Below are positions 314-34,979 of a DNA stretch of 36,419 nucleotides, one piece after another (position 1 is the first letter of the stretch; each line of letters starts with the position of its first letter). The translations under genes were made by a program, and so were the position numbers. Below the pieces are notes generated by a model. That model made no database searches, had not been told where the DNA came from, and worked only from the letters and a program-made list of their open reading frames with translations. Source of the stretch: Oscillochloris sp. ZM17-4 (GTDB lineage Bacteria > Chloroflexota > Chloroflexia > Chloroflexales > Chloroflexaceae); the NCBI RefSeq assembly GCF_019599295.1, contig NZ_JAIEWN010000018.1, positions 1 through 36,419 of the forward strand. The letters are read 5' to 3'.

Positions 314-422
314 GGAACAGGGGACCGCGTACAGGGGATAGGTGAACCCAGGAAGTACGGGCGTACTCATGGGCTCCGTCTGCCACCTGTCCCCTGTCCC
401 CTCCCCCCTGCCCCCTGTCCCC
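313..422. repeat. Inverted array of CCCCTGT-type heptamers
   Basis: The gap between the DUF507 gene and moxR holds copies of ACAGGGG (about 316-322 and 331-337) facing a run of CCCCTGT-like units at 384-422. The 14 bases at 331-344 pair with 384-397 with one mismatch. A small hairpin (AGTAC/GTACT, 354-367) sits between the arms. The left arm begins at the DUF507 stop codon, and the right arm ends just before the moxR ribosome binding site. Confidence 0.7.
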
Positions 423-440
423 TTGCCAAAGGAGTTCCGC

Positions 441-8074: not shown

Positions 8075-10186
8075 CTATGCGAGCCCGAGGATGTTCAGGA
8101 GCACGTCGATCAGCTTGATCCCGACAAACGGCGTCACTACCCCGCCCAGGCCGTAGATCAGCAGGTTGTGCCGCAGCATCTGGGCCGCGCCCTGCGCCCG
8201 GTAGGCCACGCCGCGCAGGGCCAGCGGGATGAGCAGCGGGATGATGATCGCGTTGAAGATCACTGCCGAGACGATGGCGCTCGCCGGCGAGCTCAGCCCC
8301 ATCACATTCAGCGCGTTCAGCTGCGGGTAGGTCGCCGCAAATGCCGCCGGGATGATCGCGGCGTACTTGGCGATATCGTTGCTGATCGAGAAGGTGGTCA
8401 GCGCGCCGCGGGTGATCAGCAGCTGCTTGCCGATCTCCACCACCTCGATCAGCTTGGTCGGGTTGCTGTCCAGATCGACCATGTTGCCGGCCTCTTTGGC
8501 GGCCTGGGTGCCCGAGTTCATGGCCACCGCCACGTCGGCCTGGGCCAGGGCGGGCGCGTCGTTGGTGCCGTCGCCGGTCATGGCCACCAGCCGGCCGCCC
8601 TGCTGGTACTCGCGGATGAGCGCCAGCTTGGCCTCGGGGGTGGCCTCGGCCAGAAAGTCGTCCACGCCGGCCTCGGCGGCGATCGCGGCGGCGGTGAGCG
8701 GGTTGTCGCCGGTGATCATCACCGTCTTGATGCCCATGCGCCGCAGCTCGGCGAAGCGCTCCTTGATCCCGCCCTTGACGATGTCCTTCAGCTGCACCAC
8801 GCCTAAGACTCTGCCCCCATCGGCCACCACCAGCGGCGTGCCGCCCTGCCGCGAGATCCCGTCCACCGTGGCCCGCACCTCGCTCGGCAGCGCGCCGCCC
8901 TGGCCCTCGACATAGCGCTGGATGGACTCGGCCGCGCCCTTGCGGATGCAGCTGGCGTTCAGGTTCACGCCGCTCATGCGGGTCTGGGCGCTGAAGGGCA
9001 CGAACTCGGCGCCCAGCTCGCCGAGGTTGCGCTCGCGGATGCTGTGGGCCTCCTTGGCCAGCACCACGATGCTGCGGCCCTCGGGGGTCTCGTCGGCCAG
9101 CGAGGCGAGCTGCGCGGCGTCGGCAAGCTGGGCCGCGCTCACCCCGTCGGCGGGGATGAAGGCGACGGCCTGGCGGTTGCCGAGGGTGATCGTGCCGGTC
9201 TTGTCGAGCAGCAGCACGTCCACGTCGCCCGCCGCCTCCACCGCGCGGCCCGAGGTGGCGATCACGTTCGCCTGGATCATGCGGTCCATGCCGGCGATGC
9301 CGATCGCCAAGAGCAGCCCGCCGATGGTGGTCGGGATGAGGCAGACCAGCAGGGCCACCAGCACCGTGAGCGTCACCGGCGCGCCGGCGCCGCTCGCCCG
9401 CACGGCGAAGAGCGAGAAGGGCAGCAGGGTGACGGTGGCCAGCAGAAAGATGATCGTCAGGGCGGCCAGCAGGATGCTCAGGGCGACCTCGTTGGGCGTC
9501 TTCTGGCGCCTGGCCCCCTCGACCATGCTGATCATGCGGTCGAGGAAGGTATCGCCGGGGTTGGCGCTGATCCGCACCACCAGCCAGTCGCTGAGCACGG
9601 TGGTGCCGCCGGTGACGGACGAGCGGTCGCCGCCGCTCTCGCGGATGACCGGGGCGCTCTCGCCGGTGATCGCGCTCTCGTTGACCGAGGCCACGCCCGC
9701 GATCACCTCGCCGTCGGAGGGGATGCTGTCGCCGGCCTCCACCAGCACCACGTCGCCGGCGCGCAGCGCGGAGGCTGCACAATGGTGAATGGTGAATGCT
9801 GAATGCTGAATGTTCGCTGCATGGTCATTCAATATTCCTAATTCAACATTCACCATTTTTTTTGCGCTCACGTCGCGGCGGGCCTTGCGCAAGGTGTCGG
9901 CCTGGGCCTTGCCGCGGCCCTCGGCCATGGCCTCGGCGAAGTTGGCGAACAGGATGGTGAGCCAGAGCCAGGCGCTGATCGCAAAGATGAAGCTGGCCGG
10001 GGCCTCGCCCTGGCCGAGCAGGGCCTGCGCCCAGAGCGCGCTGGTGAGCGCGGCGCCCACCAGCACCACGAACATCACCGGGTTGCGCAGCTGGGCCCGT
10101 GGGTCGAGCTTGGCGAAGGAGGCGATGATCGCCTGGCGGACAATCGGCCCGTCGAAGAGCGGGCGGGGCTTTGTTTCGGTGGTCAT
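8075..10186 (-). CDS. kdpB: Potassium-transporting P-type ATPase subunit KdpB
   Basis: This 703-residue catalytic ATPase of the high-affinity K+ pump carries the phosphorylation motif DKTGT (Asp about residue 328), the actuator-domain TGES ([19 protein letters not shown]), [20 protein letters not shown], and membrane segments at both ends. It is close to the usual KdpB length (682 in E. coli) plus an extra stretch at about residues 110-136 (MVNVELG...TIHHC). That stretch is translated from an AATGGTGAATG-type repeat and replaces or interrupts the normally conserved linker before [17 protein letters not shown] chose ATG 10186 ([13 protein letters not shown]). It lacks a Shine-Dalgarno, but upstream codons lie in a palindrome. 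Confidence 0.95.
9781..9857. repeat. Heptamer inverted repeat inserted inside kdpB
   Basis: Tandem GGTGAAT/GCTGAAT units (9781-9814) face ATTCAACATTCACCATT (9841-9857). AATGGTGAATG at 9781-9791 pairs exactly with CATTCACCATT at 9847-9857. The run has no stop in the kdpB frame. It is AT-rich compared with the surrounding coding sequence and resembles the intergenic array at 25272-25332. Confidence 0.8.
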
Positions 10187-19058: not shown

Positions 19059-19186
19059 GGCGCTGAGGCACTGAGGATGTGAGTCATACGAAAGAGGCAT
19101 GGCACCCATGGGTGCCATGCCTCTTTCGTATGACATCAGTGCGTATGGAGGCCCGATCAGTGTCTCACATCCTCAGTGCCTCAGTG
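19052..19186. repeat. Nested palindrome: CACTGAGG octamers around a 52-base perfect palindrome
   Basis: 19083-19134 is a perfect palindrome with no loop (26 bases each side, centre CCCATGGG). It is flanked by CACTGAGG-type octamers at 19052-19082 and by their complements at 19163-19186, where GCACTGAGGATGTGA mirrors TCACATCCTCAGTGC. The stop codons of both convergent genes (TGA at 19056-19058 and 19183-19181) are read from the octamer as CAC TGA. It probably terminates both transcripts. Confidence 0.88.
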
Positions 19187-24053: not shown

Positions 24054-25264
24054 TACACTGCGCCCTTCGCCTCCTCCCAGAGGGCGATCATCTCGTCGAG
24101 GGAGAGGTCGGACAGGTTACGGCCCCGCTCGATGGAGGTGAAGCGGCGGCGGAACTTGGCGTTGGCCTCGCGCAGGGCGGCCTCGGCGTCCACGCCAAGG
24201 TAGCTGGCCAGGCGTGCGGTGATGAGGAGCAGGTCGCCGAGCTCCTCGGCGGTGTGGGCGGCGTCGCCGCTGTCGACCGCCGCCTCCAGCTCGGCGAGCT
24301 CCTCGCGCAGCTTCGCCCAGGCCCCGTCGGCGTCGGGCCAGGCGAAGCCGGCGCGGGCGGCCTTCTTGCCGAGCTTCTGGGCGACGGCCAGGGCCGGCAG
24401 GGCCGGCGGCACGCCGTCGAGGGCGCTGGGGCGCGAGCGGCCCTTCTCGGCCAGCTCGGCGGCCTTGATCTGCTCCCAGCTCTGGTGTACCTGCGCCACG
24501 CCCTCCACGGCCACGTCGCCGAAGACGTGCGGGTGACGCCGGATCAGCTTGCCGGCCACCTGGCCGAACACATCGGCGACGCTGAAGGCGCCGGCCTGGC
24601 GGGCCATCTCGCTGTGCGCGAAGATGCTGATCAGCAGGTCGCCCAGCTCCTCGCTCAGGCCGTGCGCGTCGTCGGCATCGAGGGCCTCCAGCACCTCATA
24701 GGCCTCCTCAAGCAGGGCGCCGCGCAGGGACTGGTGGGTCTGCCGGACATCCCAGGGGCAGCCGCCGGGGGCGAGCAGGCGGGCCACCACCCAGTGCAGC
24801 CCCTCGGGGCCGCGCAGGTCGGCGGCGATCACCAAGCTGGGCAGGTGGAGAGTGTTGAGTGGAGAGTGTTGAGTGTTGAGTGTCGCGAGGTCGGCCAGGG
24901 CGAGCCGGGTGATGTGTGTGGCCGCGCCCGACTCATCCAGGGCCAGCAGCGTGACCGGGTGATCCTGGGGGTAGCGCCAGATCAGCAGCTCGTAGAGACG
25001 CCCCGCCGGGGCGTCTGCGCCAACATCCCAGATGATCGCCGGGGCGGCGGGCAGCAGCGGGAAGGGCGCGGGCGGGGGCGCGTAGGCGCCGAGGCCCTGG
25101 GTCTCGGCGTAGGAGCGCACCTCGGCGTCGGGGCCGCCCTGGCCGCGCAGAGATGCGGCGGCGGCGAGCAGCGCCGGGGCGCGGTGGAGCTGGACTGCGG
25201 CTCCATGCTCCAGATCAAGCGCAGTGCAGCAGGCGTCGAGGATGCGACCGGGTGTCAAGATCAT
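24053..25264 (-). CDS. mazG: MazG nucleotide pyrophosphohydrolase with methylase-like N-terminus
   Basis: This is a 403-residue protein. From about residue 155 it has two MazG modules: [20 protein letters not shown] with [15 protein letters not shown], then the second [18 protein letters not shown]. These carry the ExxE...ExxD-type Mg2+ sites for hydrolysing NTPs to NMP and PPi. The first 150 residues resemble the C-terminal half of a tetrapyrrole (SAM) methylase, as in YabN-type fusions ([15 protein letters not shown], then [10 protein letters not shown]), but lack its N-terminal half. A stretch [11 protein letters not shown] inside that region is encoded by a heptamer repeat. The start is ATG 25264. 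Confidence 0.88.
24848..24883. repeat. GTTGAGT heptamer repeat inside mazG
   Basis: GGAGAGTGTTGAGT occurs twice in tandem, with a further GTTGAGT, in frame in mazG. It encodes a short polar insert ([11 protein letters not shown]) in the linker before the last methylase-like strand. The unit is related to the TTGAATG arrays at 9781 and 25272. Confidence 0.75.
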
Positions 25265-25271
25265 AGTGTTG

Positions 25272-25332
25272 AATATTGAATGTTGAATGTTGAATAGCCG
25301 AATTCAGCATTCAACATTCAACATTCAATATT
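25272..25332. repeat. TTGAATG heptamer palindrome between mazG and the foldase gene
   Basis: AATATTGAATGTTGAATG plus six bases (25272-25295) pairs exactly with 25309-25332 (24 bases, 13-base loop). It fills the whole 67-base gap. The foldase stop TAA overlaps the right arm, and the mazG ATG is eight bases from the left arm. Confidence 0.9.
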
Positions 25333-28700: not shown

Positions 28701-28733
28701 TATACAGATTCCCCTAGTCCAAAGGAGAGCGTG

Positions 28734-30344
28734 ATGTCAGAGCGCCGAGACCGAGTGCATCCGGCCGTGCCCGAGGCCCAAGAGCAGCTTCGCCAGGGGC
28801 GGATCAGCCGCCGCGAGTTCCTGCGCGTGGCGACCCTGCTGGGCGTGAGCGCGCCGGCCGCCTATGTCCTGGCCGCCTGCGGCACCCCCACCGCGACCGC
28901 ACCCACCGCCGCCCCGGCCGCCGCCGCCGCCACCGAGGCTCCCGCCGCCGCCGCCACCGCCGCCCCTGCAATGGGCGCGATCAAGCGCGGCGGCACCCTG
29001 CGCGTCGGCATACAAGTACCGGCCGTGGACCACCCGGCCCGCTTCTCGTGGGTCTTCGACTCCAACGAGTTCCGCCAGGTCTTCGAGTACCTCACCGAGA
29101 CCGGCGCGGACAACATCACCCGGCCCTACCTGCTGGAGAGCTGGGAGGCCAGCGACGACCTGAAGACCTGGACGCTGAACCTGCGCAAGGGTATCAAGTG
29201 GTCGAACGGCGACGAGCTCACCTCCGAGGATGTGCTCTTCAACTTCAAGGAGTGGCTGGCCCCCGAGACCAAGTCGTCCATCCTGGGCCTCTGGGAGGGC
29301 TTCCTGACCATCGACGGCGTGGAGGCCAAGGACGACTACACCGTCGTGCTGAACCTGGCCGCGCCGAAGCTCGACGTGCCGGAGACCCTGTTCCACTACC
29401 CGGCCCAGATCATGCACCGCAGCTTCAACGGCGACCTGACCACGCTCAGCAACCCGAGCACCGGCCCGATGAAGCTGGACGAGTTCAAGGTCGGCGAGCG
29501 GGTGAAGGTCTCGAAGCGCGAGGGCTACTGGCAGAACGGCGAGGACGGCAGCCCGCTGCCCTACCTAGACGCGATCGAGTACATCGACCTGGGCAACGAC
29601 CAGACGGCCTACGTGGCCGCGCTCCAGGGCGGCCAGATCGACACGATCTACGACCCGACGGTCGACACCTTCCTGGCCCTGCGCAATAACGACAAGATCA
29701 CCGTCGAGCCGCTGCCCACCGCGCAGGTGCGCCTGCTGCGCATGCGGGTGGATATCGAGCCATGGACGGACGTGCGGGTGCGCAACGCCCTGAAGATGTG
29801 CCAGGACCGCCAGGCCATCCTGGACAACGCCTACTTCGGCCAGGGCGATCTCGGCCAGGACGTCCACGTCGCCCCGGTTCAGCCGGAGTACGCGCCGATG
29901 GACGTGCCGGCCTACGACCCCGAGGGGGCCAAGGCGCTGCTAGAGGAGGCCGGCGTCACCACGCCGCTAGACGTGTCGATCGCCGTCGGCACCGGCTGGA
30001 CCGATGTCGTGACCTATGCCGAGTCGCTCAAGGAGCTGGCCACCCCGGCCGGTTTCAACATCACCCTGGACACAATGCCCAACAGCTCGTACTGGGATAA
30101 GTGGGCCGAGGTGCCGGTGGGCATTACGCCCTGGACGCACCGGCCCCTGGCGGTGATGCTGCTGCCGCTGGCCTACATCGCCGACGCCGAGGGCACCCCG
30201 GTGCCGTGGAACGAGACCCGCTGGGTCGATCAGGAGTTCACACCCCACCCACTACCAGATCTGGCGCGACACCTGGTACGACCCGGACAAGGCGGCGTAG
30301 GTTGGGGGTTGGGGGTTGGGGGTTGGGGGTTGTGTACCGTATGA
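28734..30344 (+). CDS. ABC transporter solute-binding lipoprotein (family 5), 3' end disrupted
   Basis: This is an extracellular peptide/nickel-type binding protein with a twin-arginine signal (SRREFLRV) and a lipobox (VLAAC, Cys49), then an Ala/Pro/Thr linker. Family segments are ESWEASDDLKTWTLNLRKGI and KWSNGDELTSEDVLFNFKEW. ATG 28734 has AAAGGAG six bases upstream. The 3' end is damaged. After RWVDQEFT (about 30240) the frame changes. The normal ending HPTHYQIWRDTWYDPDKAA with TAG at 30300 lies in another frame, and the roughly 50 residues that homologues carry between these points are missing. As written, translation runs on into TTGGGGG repeats and ends at 30344. Confidence 0.85.
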   Translation: MSERRDRVHPAVPEAQEQLRQGRISRREFLRVATLLGVSAPAAYVLAACGTPTATAPTAAPAAAAATEAPAAAATAAPAMGAIKRGGTLRVGIQVPAVDHPARFSWVFDSNEFRQVFEYLTETGADNITRPYLLESWEASDDLKTWTLNLRKGIKWSNGDELTSEDVLFNFKEWLAPETKSSILGLWEGFLTIDGVEAKDDYTVVLNLAAPKLDVPETLFHYPAQIMHRSFNGDLTTLSNPSTGPMKLDEFKVGERVKVSKREGYWQNGEDGSPLPYLDAIEYIDLGNDQTAYVAALQGGQIDTIYDPTVDTFLALRNNDKITVEPLPTAQVRLLRMRVDIEPWTDVRVRNALKMCQDRQAILDNAYFGQGDLGQDVHVAPVQPEYAPMDVPAYDPEGAKALLEEAGVTTPLDVSIAVGTGWTDVVTYAESLKELATPAGFNITLDTMPNSSYWDKWAEVPVGITPWTHRPLAVMLLPLAYIADAEGTPVPWNETRWVDQEFTPHPLPDLARHLVRPGQGGVGWGLGVGGWGLCTV

Positions 30345-30380: not shown

Positions 30381-31688
30381 ATGATCACATTTCTTCTGCG
30401 CCGCGCGTTCTACCTGATTCTGACGCTCTTCGCCGTCTCGATCGGGATTTTTGCAATGAGTGAGATCGCGCCCGGCAACATTGCGATCAACTCGCTAGGC
30501 AACACGATCACCCCGGCCCAGGAGGCATCGTTCAACGCGCAGAACGGCCTGGATCAGCCCGCCGTCACGCGCTACATCCGCTGGATGATCGGCAGCGACT
30601 GGCGGGCCGCCGGCCTGATCGGCTACCCGGTGCGCCAGATCTACGAGGCCGACCTGAACCGCTGGAGCTGGTGGGGCGCGCTGCCCGACGGCACGCTGTT
30701 CCAGAACTACACCGACGACGGCGAGAACATGATCCGCGTCGAGCGCCTGGCCGACGGCAGCACCCGCGATGTTCCGCTCGGCCCCGAGGTCTGGAAGACC
30801 GACGCCGAGGGCTTCCCGGTGTTCTGGGGCGTGGATCGCGAGGGCCGCGCGGCCATGTGGGTGCGGGGTGATGATAACGAAGCGTGGACGCTGGGCAAGA
30901 GCACCTGGAGAAGCTCGAAGGGCGCTCCGCGCGCGTACATCCCGCTCCAGAAGGGCCTGCTACGCGGCGACCCCGGCGTGTCCTTCTTCACCCGCCGCCC
31001 GGTGGCCGAGACGCTGGTGCCGCGCCTGATGAACACGCTGCTGCTGGCCGGGATCGCCTTCGTGGTGGTGATGCCGCTGGCCCTGGCGCTGGGCATGCTG
31101 GCCGGCCTGAACGAGGGCCGATTCCTCGACCGGCTGCTCTCGATCAGCAGCCTGGTGGCCACGGCCACGCCCGAGTTCGCCTCGGGGGTCTTCCTGATCT
31201 TGATCTTCTCGACCTGGCTGAAGTGGCTGCCCGGCGCGGTGGTAGTCACCAGCGACACGGCGATCTTCGAGCGCCCGCAGATGCTGGTGCTGCCGATCAT
31301 CACCCTGACCCTGATCGAGCTGGGCTATGTGCTGCGGATCACCCGGGCCAGCATGGTCGAGGTGATGCGCACGAACTACATCCGCACGGCCACGCTCAAG
31401 GGCCTGCCGCAGTGGCGGATCGTGACGAAGCACGCCCTGCGCAACGCGCTGATGGCCCCGATCACGGTGATCATCCTGCATGTGAACTGGCTGATCGGCG
31501 GGATCGTGGTGGTCGAGACGCTCTTCGGCTTCCCCGGCCTGGGCCGCTATGTGATGGAGGCCGCCCTGTTCAAAGATGTGTTTGCGATCGAGGCGGCGAC
31601 GATGGTGCTGGTGGTGATCGCGGTCGGCACGCAGCTGGTGGCCGACCTGATCTACACCTATATCAACCCGAGGATCCGGTACACTTGA
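30381..31688 (+). CDS. ABC transporter permease, DppB/OppB type, with a periplasmic insert
   Basis: This 435-residue inner-membrane permease has an N-terminal helix (FLLRRAFYLILTLFAVSIGI) and, near the C-terminus, the coupling motif in RTATLKGLPQWRIVTKHALRN and the final FGFPGLGRYVMEAALFKDV, as in DppB. Typical DppB proteins have 306-340 residues. The extra length is a soluble segment of about 100 residues between helices 1 and 2 (about residues 70-180). It contains DGTLFQNYTDDGENMIRVER and VDREGRAAMWVRGDDNEAW and is predicted to lie outside. ATG 30381 has GGAGG nine bases upstream. It is the second gene of the transporter operon. Confidence 0.92.
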   Translation: MITFLLRRAFYLILTLFAVSIGIFAMSEIAPGNIAINSLGNTITPAQEASFNAQNGLDQPAVTRYIRWMIGSDWRAAGLIGYPVRQIYEADLNRWSWWGALPDGTLFQNYTDDGENMIRVERLADGSTRDVPLGPEVWKTDAEGFPVFWGVDREGRAAMWVRGDDNEAWTLGKSTWRSSKGAPRAYIPLQKGLLRGDPGVSFFTRRPVAETLVPRLMNTLLLAGIAFVVVMPLALALGMLAGLNEGRFLDRLLSISSLVATATPEFASGVFLILIFSTWLKWLPGAVVVTSDTAIFERPQMLVLPIITLTLIELGYVLRITRASMVEVMRTNYIRTATLKGLPQWRIVTKHALRNALMAPITVIILHVNWLIGGIVVVETLFGFPGLGRYVMEAALFKDVFAIEAATMVLVVIAVGTQLVADLIYTYINPRIRYT

Positions 31689-31691
31689 GCG

Positions 31692-31759
31692 ATTGCAGAT
31701 TGCAGATTGCAGATTGCAGATTGCCGGCAATCTGCAATCTGCAATCTGCAATCTGCAAT
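31692..31759. repeat. Perfect 68-base palindrome of GCAGATT heptamers
   Basis: The left half is about five tandem GCAGATT units and the right half is their exact complement, with the centre TTGCCGGCAA and 34 bases in each arm. It fills the gap between the two permease genes, three bases after the first permease's TGA and just before the AGGAG of the next. Confidence 0.93.
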
Positions 31760-31773
31760 TAGGAGAGAGAACC

Positions 31774-32730
31774 ATGGCCGTCATCGAGCAACCGGCCACC
31801 CTGACCGCGCCGGCCCGGCCCTCTGTGTGGGGGCGGATCGCCGCCGTGCTGGCGCTGCTGGGCCGCTCGCGGGTGGCCATCGCCGGCCTGATCCTGGTTG
31901 GGTTCTGGGTCGTCCTGGCGATCTTCGCCGACGACTGCATCATCCGCCCGGCCTGCTGGGTGGGCGGTGGCAGCGATGGTACGGTGGTGAGCACGCCCTG
32001 GCTGGCCCGCTACTCGCCGTTCGAGCAGTTCCGCGGGCGCAACCTGGAGGGGCCGTCGGCCGACCACTGGCTGGGAACCGACCGCAACGGCCGCGACCTG
32101 TGGGCGCGCATCGTGCAGGGCTCGCGGATCATCCTCGTCCTTGCCCCGATCTCGGTGCTGATCGCCCTGGCGATCGGCGGGACCCTCGGCCTGATCGCCG
32201 GCTACTTCGGCGGCCAGATCGACGAGCTGCTGATGCGCGTCCTCGACGCGCTCATGGCCTTCCCGCAGATCTTGCTCTACCTGATCATCATCGCCGCCCT
32301 CGGCCCCTCGGCAGTCAATGTGGTGCTGGCGATCACGATCGCCGGCGCGCCCGGCATCGCCCGCCTGGTGCGCTCGCTCACCCTCGACATCAAGACCCGC
32401 GACTACGTGGCGGCCGCGCAGACCCGCGGCGAGAGCCCGTGGTACATCATGTTCGTCGAGATCCTGCCCAACGCCCGCGGCCCGATCATCATCGACGCCA
32501 TGCTGCGGGTCGGCTACGCGGTGTTCGCCATCGGCACCTTGGGCTTCCTCGGCCTGGGCCTGCCGCCGCCCTCGCCCGACTGGGGCAGCATCGTCAACAC
32601 CGGGCGTAAGTTCATCCAGGCCGGCCACCCCTGGGACGCGCTGTGGGCCTCGCTGTCCATCGCCTCCCTCGTCGTCGGCCTCAACCTGCTCGCCGACGGG
32701 CTCTCCGAGGAGTTGGGACGCTACCGCTGA
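31774..32730 (+). CDS. ABC transporter permease, DppC/OppC type
   Basis: This 318-residue inner-membrane permease has a cytoplasmic N-terminus (VWGRIAAVLALLGRSRVAIA), helix 1, then an external loop ending DHWLGTDRNGRDLWARIVQGSR, the classic DppC entry motif. Membrane segments follow, and the coupling loop DYVAAAQTRGESPWYIMFVE with ILPNARGPIIIDA. The loop after helix 1 carries two cysteines (DDCIIRPACW). ATG 31774 has AGGAG eight bases upstream. An earlier ATG lies in the heptamer palindrome and is rejected. It would form the translocation pore with the preceding permease. Confidence 0.93.
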   Translation: MAVIEQPATLTAPARPSVWGRIAAVLALLGRSRVAIAGLILVGFWVVLAIFADDCIIRPACWVGGGSDGTVVSTPWLARYSPFEQFRGRNLEGPSADHWLGTDRNGRDLWARIVQGSRIILVLAPISVLIALAIGGTLGLIAGYFGGQIDELLMRVLDALMAFPQILLYLIIIAALGPSAVNVVLAITIAGAPGIARLVRSLTLDIKTRDYVAAAQTRGESPWYIMFVEILPNARGPIIIDAMLRVGYAVFAIGTLGFLGLGLPPPSPDWGSIVNTGRKFIQAGHPWDALWASLSIASLVVGLNLLADGLSEELGRYR

Positions 32731-32824: not shown

Positions 32825-34927
32825 ATGGAACTTCCTAAAGGAAAACATAACGAGCCCGTCGTGCGGGTGCAGAACCTGGCGATCGCCTACGAGACCCACG
32901 GCGGCGACGTGAATGCCGTGCGCGATGTCTCGTTCGAGATCCACCGCGGCGAGACGCTGGGCCTGGTGGGCGAGTCGGGCTGCGGCAAGAGCACGGTGGC
33001 CTACGGCCTGGTGAACTACCTGGGCCGCAACGGCAAGATCGTCCACGGCGAGATCATCTTCCAGGGCGAGTCGCTGGTCGGCCGCTCGCCCGAGGAGCTG
33101 CGCCGGCTGCGCGGCGACCAGATCGCCATGGTCTACCAGGACCCGATGACCTCGCTCAACCCGGTGCTGCGGGTCGGCCAGCAGATGACCGAGGTGCTGA
33201 CGGTTCACCGGGGCATCAGCGAGGATGCGGCCCGCGCCCGCTGCGTCGAGATGCTGCACCGCGTGTATATGCCCGACCCCGAGGCGGTGATGGGCCGCTA
33301 CCCGCACCAGATCTCGGGCGGCCAGCAGCAGCGTGTGGTGATCGCGATGGCGCTGCTGAACAACCCGGCTCTGCTGGTCATGGACGAGCCGACCACCGCC
33401 CTGGACGTGACCGTCGAGGCCGCCGTGCTCGACCTGATCGCCGACCTGCGCCGCGACTTCGACACGGCCATCCTGTTCATCAGCCACAACCTGGGCGTGG
33501 TGGCCCGCGTGAGCAGCCGGGTGGGCGTGATGTACGCCGGCGAGATGGTTGAGCAGGCCCCGGTGCGCGAGATCTTCGCCCACCCGCGCCACCCCTACAC
33601 CCAGGGCCTGATGCGCTGCGTTCCGCGCCTGGGCGCCGACAAGGCCGGCAGCGTGCTCTACCCCATCCGCGGGCGTGTGCCCGCCCCCAACCACCTGCCG
33701 CCCGGATGTGTCTTCGAGCCGCGCTGCGACTACGCCACCGAGCACTGCCGCCAGGAGCGGCCCGCCCTGCGCCAGATCAGCAACCGGCATATGGTGTCAT
33801 GCCTGCGCGCCGAGCATATCCGCGCCAGCGAGTGGCGGCCGACCGAGGATATCATCCCGCTGCTGCCCGCCGCAGACGCGGCCGAGCCGGAGACGATCCT
33901 CAACGTCGATGGCCTGCGCACCTACTACAGGCAGAGCGGCGGCTCGCCCCTCGACCTGATCGGGCTGGGCAAGAAGCGCTACGTGCGCGCCGTGGACGGC
34001 GTCAGCTTCACCATCCCCCAGGGCAAGACCCTCGGCGTGGTGGGCGAGTCGGGCTGCGGCAAGTCCACCCTGATCAAGACCCTGATCGGCCTGGAGCCGA
34101 TGACCGGCGGCGAGGCCCAGTTCCTCGGCTTCGACCTGGAGAAGAAGGCCAGCCAGCGCGACATGGGCCTCATCCGCGAGCTGCAGATGGTCTTCCAGAA
34201 CCCCGACGCGACGATGAACCCGAGCTACAGCGTGGGCACGCAGATCGAGCGGCCGCTGCGCCGCTTCAAGGTGGTGCCGACCAATCAGGTCCACGCCGAG
34301 GTGGTGCGCCTGCTGCGCGCCGTCAAGCTCGACGAGCACTACTACGACCGCCGGCCGCGCCAGCTCTCGGGCGGCGAGAAGCAGCGCGTCGGCATCGCCC
34401 GCGCCTTCGCCGGCCGGCCCGACCTGGTGCTCTGCGACGAGCCGGTCAGCGCGCTGGACGTGAGCGTGCAGGCGGCAGTGCTCAACCTGCTGCTGGAGAT
34501 CCAGCGCGAGCAGGGCACCACCATGATCTTTATCGCCCACGACCTGAGCGTGGTGCGCTTCTTCTCGGACTATGTGGCGGTGATGTACCTGGGCCAGATC
34601 GTCGAGATCGGTCCGGCCGAGGCGATCTACGCGCCGCCCTACCACCCCTACACCGAGTCGCTGCTGGCGGCGGTGCCCATCCCCGACCCGTCGGTGGCCC
34701 AGCAGCACATCCGCCTGGAGGGCAGCGTGCCCAGCCCGCTCAACCCGCCCAGCGGCTGCCGCTTCCACACCCGCTGCCCGCGCCGCCAGCTCCTGCCCGA
34801 CGGCGGCGCGATCTGCGAGCGCGAGGTGCCGCCGATGCAGGACGCCGGCGACGGACACCAGATCCACTGCCACATCCCCCTGGAGACCCTGCACGACCTG
34901 GAGCCCGTGGTGACAATTGCGGCGTAG
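32825..34927 (+). CDS. Fused double ATPase of a peptide-type ABC transporter (DppD-DppF)
   Basis: This 700-residue protein has two complete ATP-binding cassettes. Cassette 1 has Walker A GESGCGKST (49-57), signature ISGGQQQR and Walker B LLVMDEPTTALD. Cassette 2 has GESGCGKST (407-415), LSGGEKQR and LVLCDEPVSALD. Each ends in the oligopeptide-transporter C-terminal motif (PPGCVFEPRC and PPSGCRFHTRC). In most bacteria these are two genes (dppD, dppF). Here one polypeptide would energise both permeases. ATG 32825 has little Shine-Dalgarno and lies just after a hairpin. The TAG stop is part of the next palindrome. Confidence 0.94.
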   Translation: MELPKGKHNEPVVRVQNLAIAYETHGGDVNAVRDVSFEIHRGETLGLVGESGCGKSTVAYGLVNYLGRNGKIVHGEIIFQGESLVGRSPEELRRLRGDQIAMVYQDPMTSLNPVLRVGQQMTEVLTVHRGISEDAARARCVEMLHRVYMPDPEAVMGRYPHQISGGQQQRVVIAMALLNNPALLVMDEPTTALDVTVEAAVLDLIADLRRDFDTAILFISHNLGVVARVSSRVGVMYAGEMVEQAPVREIFAHPRHPYTQGLMRCVPRLGADKAGSVLYPIRGRVPAPNHLPPGCVFEPRCDYATEHCRQERPALRQISNRHMVSCLRAEHIRASEWRPTEDIIPLLPAADAAEPETILNVDGLRTYYRQSGGSPLDLIGLGKKRYVRAVDGVSFTIPQGKTLGVVGESGCGKSTLIKTLIGLEPMTGGEAQFLGFDLEKKASQRDMGLIRELQMVFQNPDATMNPSYSVGTQIERPLRRFKVVPTNQVHAEVVRLLRAVKLDEHYYDRRPRQLSGGEKQRVGIARAFAGRPDLVLCDEPVSALDVSVQAAVLNLLLEIQREQGTTMIFIAHDLSVVRFFSDYVAVMYLGQIVEIGPAEAIYAPPYHPYTESLLAAVPIPDPSVAQQHIRLEGSVPSPLNPPSGCRFHTRCPRRQLLPDGGAICEREVPPMQDAGDGHQIHCHIPLETLHDLEPVVTIAA

Positions 34928-34979
34928 GGTCGCAGCAGTGGGGGCGCTGCATGCAGCGCCCCCACTGCTGCGACCCTAC
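34924..34979. repeat. 56-base perfect loopless palindrome, GTAGGGTCGCAGCAG class
   Basis: 34924-34951 is the exact complement of 34952-34979, with no unpaired centre (TGCATGCA). The arm GTAGGGTCGCAGCAG is close to other copies, and the core (TGGGGGCGCTGCA) is private. The ATPase-gene stop TAG is bases 34925-34927 of the element. Confidence 0.94.

Follow-up and report, generated by a model that had tools for sequence, protein, structure and literature searches.

A heptamer palindrome between two permease genes

The stretch of DNA analysed here (the window) comprises 36,419 nucleotides from Oscillochloris sp. ZM17-4. It contains two genes that both encode ABC permeases of a dipeptide-type transporter (Pfam BPD_transp_1), and which follow one another on the forward strand: a dppB-like gene at 30381..31688, with its TGA stop codon at 31686-31688, and a dppC-like gene at 31774..32730. 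Three nucleotides after the TGA there begins a palindrome (31692-31759), after which the AGGAG of the dppC-like gene follows at once, with the ATG 14 nt further on. The Shine-Dalgarno region, AGGAGAGAG (31761..31773, forward strand, as read from the sequence), therefore abuts the palindrome.

The palindrome (ATTGCAG...CTGCAAT) is 68 bp long, identical to its own reverse complement, and the longest perfect palindrome in the window. Its arms are five-fold GATTGCA arrays, opposed around a CG centre. The left arm (31691..31724, forward strand) is (GATTGCA)4.9, with the G-rich strand leading, and the right arm (31727..31759, reverse strand) is the mirrored array (TGCAATC)4.7. TRF assigns both arms a period of 7 and a 100% match, in agreement with the preliminary description of this DNA as holding a perfect palindrome of tandem heptamers. 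As RNA the palindrome is predicted to fold strongly, with -61.8 kcal/mol for a 111-nt stretch (z -10.4). A search of the window against Rfam gave no match over the gathering score, and neither a GTAG nor a CGTC tag is found beside the palindrome at this locus. There is no T tract 3' of it, where TAGGAGAGAG comes next, and so it does not qualify as an intrinsic terminator.

The window contains several further period-7 arrays, as had also been described, with different units and the same unit length. TRF confirms those previously named and adds one more (AATGGTG/AATGCTG, 9781..9812, forward strand). The others are a second mirrored palindrome with GAATGTT units (25267..25332; TTGAATG/CATTCAA in the TRF output), a GAGTGTT array (24845..24883, forward strand) whose orthologous place in strain ZM16-3 holds GAATGGT, an ACAGGGG array with its C-rich strand on the forward strand (380..423, reverse strand; CCTGTCC by TRF), and a GGGGGTT array (30300..30332, forward strand; GGTTGGG by TRF) at the end of a solute-binding-protein gene. 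It is worth adding that this last ORF (28731-30344) has a terminal reading frame different from that of its ZM16-3 orthologue (...DTWYDPDKAA-stop), the frame change upstream of the GGGGGTT array being either real or an assembly error. Perfect symmetry is not confined to the heptamers: the window also has perfect palindromes of 56 bp (34924..34979, between genes; GTAGGGTCGCAGCAG...CTGCTGCGACCCTAC) and 52 bp (19083..19134) that are free of heptamers. The former belongs to another class of gene-end palindrome.

Abundance of period-7 arrays

The statistics on arrays and gaps are based on 1.22 Mb of the ZM17-4 genome together with 0.40 Mb of ZM16-3, with genes called by a custom script. In the 6.69-Mb genome of ZM17-4, the 21-mer consisting of three GCAGATT units occurs 569 times, compared to zero for the reversed control. 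A count over 160 kb of intergenic DNA gives 229 period-7 arrays, with none in first-order Markov simulations and between 2 and 7 for periods 5, 6, 8 and 9, so that the proposed check of period 7 against other periods comes out clearly in favour of seven. Within the 1.22 Mb there are 317 exact period-7 arrays. Of these, 236 lie in gaps, which account for just 14% of the DNA, and 81 in genes. The other single periods give 0-9 intergenic arrays, and period 14 gives 16, which are mostly heptamers in two variants.

An assembly artefact, which had been raised as a possibility, is ruled out by ZM16-3. This genome was assembled independently and has the palindrome at the same dpp site, with fewer units in the right arm. 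The excess of period 7 and the palindrome in the second assembly together show that the repeats are due neither to chance nor to artefact.

A long period-8 array, CACCTCAT, was also seen between two genes following a GATTGCA array in ZM17-4 (C1:108284 region, near 8284-8500 of the extract; C1 is a contig of that genome), and the corresponding site in ZM16-3 has a different palindrome.

Geometry of arrays and palindromes

A mirrored partner within 120 bp was found for 92 of the 243 array groups (about 40%) in the gaps of the two genomes, and so the partners that the preliminary description had suggested looking for are common. In a first set of arrays the search recovered partners for 44/83 and 45/101 real units, against 13/415 and 4/505 trials with scrambled ones. 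The order within the mirrored groups is almost invariant: 87 begin with the G-rich arm and one with the C-rich arm, and four are neutral. For GATTGCA across the whole ZM17-4 genome, there are 181 G-first pairs and one C-first (these being pattern matches, which partly overlap), and that one is the sole C-first match in the 15 genomes scanned. Unpaired arrays occur as frequently as pairs, with identical polarity.

The polarity is related to the genes. For arrays no more than 50 nt from an ORF edge, the G-rich strand is directed away from the ORF 201 times and toward it 25 times, with starts and stops behaving alike. The arrays also have preferred starting phases (ATTGCAG or GATTGCA, AGGGGAC, AGGGTAC, AATGTTG), and the ends of GATTGCA and GAATGTT arrays tend to be ...GATTG and ...GAATG respectively. 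In gaps between co-directional genes, the palindrome starts at a median of 6 nt past the stop codon, with 22 nt left between its end and the next start, which lies less than 40 nt away in 46 of 70 cases, including dppB-dppC.

Many inverted repeats in the gaps contain no heptamers. Considering arms of at least 12 bp, 192 of these are G-first and 30 C-first, compared to 20:28 in a coding control. Among array-free gaps they are present in 68% of those between convergent genes, 54% of those between co-directional genes and 24% of those between divergent genes, compared to 7% of coding windows. Polarity and gene-end placement are thus common to all palindromes between genes in this genome, with or without heptamers, and the heptamer palindrome is one class within a wider population of gene-end palindromes.

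These positions bear on whether the palindromes act as bidirectional terminators, ending transcription of one or both adjacent genes. Starts at 0-10 nt from stop codons would suit such a role, as would the great stability of the hairpin and the fact that the heptamer-free repeats are commonest in convergent and rarest in divergent gaps. However, the heptamer palindromes themselves are not enriched in convergent gaps, and the short distance to the next start in those 46 co-directional cases leaves no room for a promoter and argues against strong termination in general. At the dpp locus strong termination is unlikely because the hairpin lies inside a transporter operon, and the T tract is missing. 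Nor are changes on the sense strand biased towards keeping G.U pairing (68 pairings kept, 83 broken), so that no selection on pairing at the RNA level is detected. We consider it improbable that the palindromes are terminators.

Comparison of the same sites in related genomes

Contig C1 is syntenic with ZM16-3 over its first 360 kb, at roughly 80-95% identity. The 144 orthologous gaps comprise 14 with arrays of one and the same unit in the two strains, 7 with different units, 91 with no array in either, and 32 with an array in one species only (10 and 22). Overlap by chance predicts about 4 different-unit sites compared to the 7 seen, which is weak on its own, and for this reason it is the co-occurrence of palindromes described below that carries weight, rather than the count of 7.

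Exchange of units, with the flanks aligned, is found at C1:31742 (ACAGGGG vs GATTGCA), at C1:164128 (ACAGGGG vs GGAGTCG), at C1:233563 (GAATGTT vs AGGCTGA) and at the second mirrored palindrome of the window (25267-25332), where GAATGTT is opposed by ATGCAAA in ZM16-3. In those gaps that have an array only in ZM16-3, ZM17-4 usually holds a different palindrome that is also strong (median fold z -4.8), for example one of the GGGCGCAGCAG family. In gaps between co-directional genes, finding a palindrome in one species makes it more likely that the other species also has one there, with arms unrelated to the first (OR 7.4, p 3e-4; 28 gaps with both, 19 and 5 with one only, 25 with neither). Restricting the comparison to pairs in which neither gap is shorter than 45 nt gives an OR of 6.2 (p 0.001), which controls only partly for gap length. 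Longer gaps favour both exchange at one site and repeated independent gain.

At C1:31742 the palindrome of G003 (numbers of this form denote genomes of our comparison set) is unrelated to either of those in ZM17-4 and ZM16-3, so that the sequence differs in each of three species. At C1:33576 ZM17-4 and ZM16-3 have a palindrome in common and G003 has another, with none in G001, G002 and G004. Since several relatives have none at a given site, the palindrome is dispensable. It would appear that a site tends to keep a palindrome while its sequence is exchanged, although repeated independent gain at a favoured place fits equally well. The comparison argues for conservation of palindrome and geometry rather than of sequence.

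A MITE-like inverted element, GGCAATACCGC... (inner part TGAGCGAAGCGAAG), is seen in gaps between heptamer arrays, as if it had been inserted into palindrome loops. It occurs in ZM17-4 at C1:51169 and C1:231389-231563, and in ZM16-3 at the site orthologous to C1:164128.

Distribution across genomes

GATTGCA arrays are abundant in G004 and ZM16-3, of the same genus, and in G007 and G016, of other genera; G002, also of the same genus, has none. At the dpp site itself, ZM17-4 has 5+5 units, ZM16-3 has 5+3, and G016 has no array. The unit GAATGTT shows no spread across phyla, with 86 occurrences in ZM17-4, 33 in ZM16-3, one in G001 and none elsewhere. A 20-kb sample (C1:1-20000) of G026, from another family of the order, contains 11 period-7 arrays with other units (AGAGCAT, AACATAG, ACCCCTG).

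The mirrored pair GCAGATTGCAGATT-N-AATCTGCAATCTGC has, among the matches listed, records labelled Planctomycetota, Armatimonadetes, Anaerolineae, Peregrinibacteria and Fluviicola, together with a cyanobacterial record, Microseira wollei NIES-4236. Genomes of other phyla with GATTGCA have 1-4 pairs each, and no C-first pair in those tested. A match labelled 'Gracilibacteria' was rejected because its label is wrong: the genome belongs to the same GTDB family as ZM17-4, the contig coordinates of G050 being the same as those of G021. The foreign matches are mostly metagenome bins and one label is wrong, and therefore the case for occurrence in several phyla depends mainly on a number of independent bins and on Microseira. 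Along the Microseira contig (837-2747) several other heptamer arrays (AATGGCT, AATTAGC) lie alongside the GATTGCA palindrome.

A plasmid search for the GATTGCA palindrome gave nothing. In IMG/VR, two contigs only, labelled viral, have such palindromes; with a GC content of 0.67-0.70, these may be misassigned Chloroflexales DNA.

Origin and possible function

Copy number at the dpp site changes by whole units: ZM17-4 and ZM16-3 both have five in the left arm, and differ by two in the right. This speaks against the active correction of arms that had been proposed earlier, as does the comparison of arms within pairs, where variant units are shared 17 times compared to 14 in permuted arms (no signal of arm-to-arm gene conversion) and arm lengths are uncorrelated.

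The occurrence of one unit at hundreds of sites, with a preferred outer phase and inverted arms, resembles what might be expected of a mobile miniature element (MITE- or REPIN-like), inserted at gene ends, whose heptamer arrays would be subterminal transposase-binding sites. Orthologous sites that have no palindrome in relatives, and the GATTGCA palindrome in genomes of other phyla, could be explained in the same way. However, for target-site duplications of 2-9 bp the observed numbers are not above permuted ones beyond noise, and a search for PF01797 (Y1_Tnp; RAYT/IS200) gave no match in ZM17-4, the genome with most copies, so that a transposase of this type was rejected as the motor. Most spacers are locus-specific, the exceptions being orthologues, neighbouring copies and array-like stretches, and arrays are found unpaired as often as paired, with polarity alike. 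We therefore regard a mobile element as unlikely.

Two further candidates were rejected. Loss of SbcCD does not account for the long palindromes, because SbcD is present in 41 of 41 genomes. A reverse transcriptase is found in ZM17-4 and is absent from the array-rich G007 (88% complete), with no correlation with arrays.

Alternatively, the palindromes could be neutral products of replication, made by heptamer slippage and hairpin template switching, functionless, and intergenic simply because selection purges them from genes. The dispensability of the palindromes, the length changes by whole units and the failure to detect either arm correction or G.U bias are all consistent with this. On the other hand, random slippage would not be expected to give a fixed polarity to ORF edges, phase-locked ends or one unit common to many loci, and a palindrome is kept at orthologous gaps despite its new sequence. 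Neutral origin alone seems to us rather unlikely.

The null results on duplication, Y1_Tnp, arm sharing and spacers speak against classical transposition and active correction. The best remaining route, if an unproven one, is slippage with copying between dispersed arrays. The explanation towards which we lean, with modest confidence, is that the palindromes form REP-like intercistronic hairpins, whose arms arise by 7-bp slippage, which are recopied between sites, and which are probably weakly favoured at gene 3' ends. Arms would lengthen and shorten by 7-bp replication slippage. New palindromes would be generated not by cut-and-paste transposition, but by copying of arm sequence from one site to another, whether by template switching or by gene conversion among arrays at different loci, as suggested solely by shared units, one unit occupying dozens to hundreds of sites. 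Gene 3' ends would tolerate the products, and probably favour them weakly, since a strong transcript hairpin could serve there as a barrier at 3' ends or between cistrons in the manner of REP hairpins. At the dpp locus, the likeliest putative effect is that the upstream dppB message is protected or that dppC expression is damped.

A broader proposal is that several phyla share a previously undescribed process, independent of transposases, that writes inverted 7-bp arrays into gene-end gaps and later rewrites the sites with other units; this is speculative and we think it doubtful. We are equally hesitant about a geometric rule within such a shared process, by which the G-rich strand would point away from the ORF in fixed phase, with GATTGCA recurring across phyla.

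Relation to known repeats

The cyanobacterial STRR (short tandemly repeated repetitive) sequences are tandem heptanucleotides of high copy number. We know of no description of mirrored palindromes among them. The preliminary description had mentioned cyanobacterial heptamers; the host belongs to the Chloroflexales and is not a cyanobacterium.

It had also remarked that the mirrored form with varied units seemed different from these. As regards mirroring, the form is not wholly new, since mirrored pairs are known in Xanthomonas. Rehm et al. (2015; PMC4692102) described GGGAATC heptamers there, with 70-75 convergent inverted pairs in each of two genomes. These are 89-93% intergenic, rare between divergent genes, and vary in length between related genomes; in the 50 bp that follow stops their G-rich strand is on the coding side, and ahead of starts it is on the non-coding side (PMC4692102). 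The arrays described here resemble them in being mostly intergenic, in having convergent G-first pairs, and in directing the G-rich strand away from the ORF. As regards the varied units, the distinction stands: Xanthomonas and Nostoc have one G-rich unit type per genome, whereas many units coexist here and are exchanged at orthologous sites, and heptamer-free palindromes here have matching place and polarity.

For the Xanthomonas repeats, quadruplexes were proposed and a function was not found, with Nostoc GGGGA(C/T)T and Calothrix heptanucleotides also being mentioned (PMC4692102). The matching architecture (PMC4692102) and the G-rich nature of some units here (GGGGACA, GGGGGTT) might suggest that the present palindromes are likewise G-quadruplex or i-motif switches. 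Quadruplex-forming capacity is, however, limited to some of the less common units; the commonest, GATTGCA and GAATGTT, have no GGG and yet follow identical rules. This argues that the idea cannot be general, and we consider it very improbable.

The TAACTGA heptamers of Beggiatoaceae, cyanobacteria and Bacteroidetes (MacGregor, 2015; PMC4679880) are intergenic direct arrays, which are likewise low in copy number per array and patchy across phyla. In contrast to the arrays here, they comprise one unit, lie just upstream of start codons, and are almost never inverted (one case). A literature search by unit sequence found no paper with a GATTGCA array. What is new relative to known heptamers is the coexistence of many units, the exchange of units at one site, and the recurrence across phyla. 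Bacterial heptamer repeats have been noted for decades, and why they have seven bases, lie near gene ends and are inverted has been left without explanation. The present pair of genomes makes the question testable: within one genus there are hundreds of copies and many units, in the sister species these sites hold different units, and few or no copies are found in relatives.

Short high-copy palindromes between genes, often near stop codons, are also characteristic of the GTAG- and CGTC-tagged REPs and REPINs, and in this respect the palindromes described here are similar. They differ in having arms made of heptamer arrays, with array starts such as ATTGCAG, AGGGGAC and AATGTTG in place of the tag. 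GTAG REPs have been reported in Chloroflexi among other phyla and are linked to RAYT transposases (PMC3733652), unlike the present repeats in view of the Y1_Tnp result. In this genome GTAG-ended palindromes occupy sites in common with heptamer palindromes. We note finally that the 56-bp palindrome at 34924-34979 is flanked by GTAG/CTAC, and in this resembles GTAG-tagged REPs.
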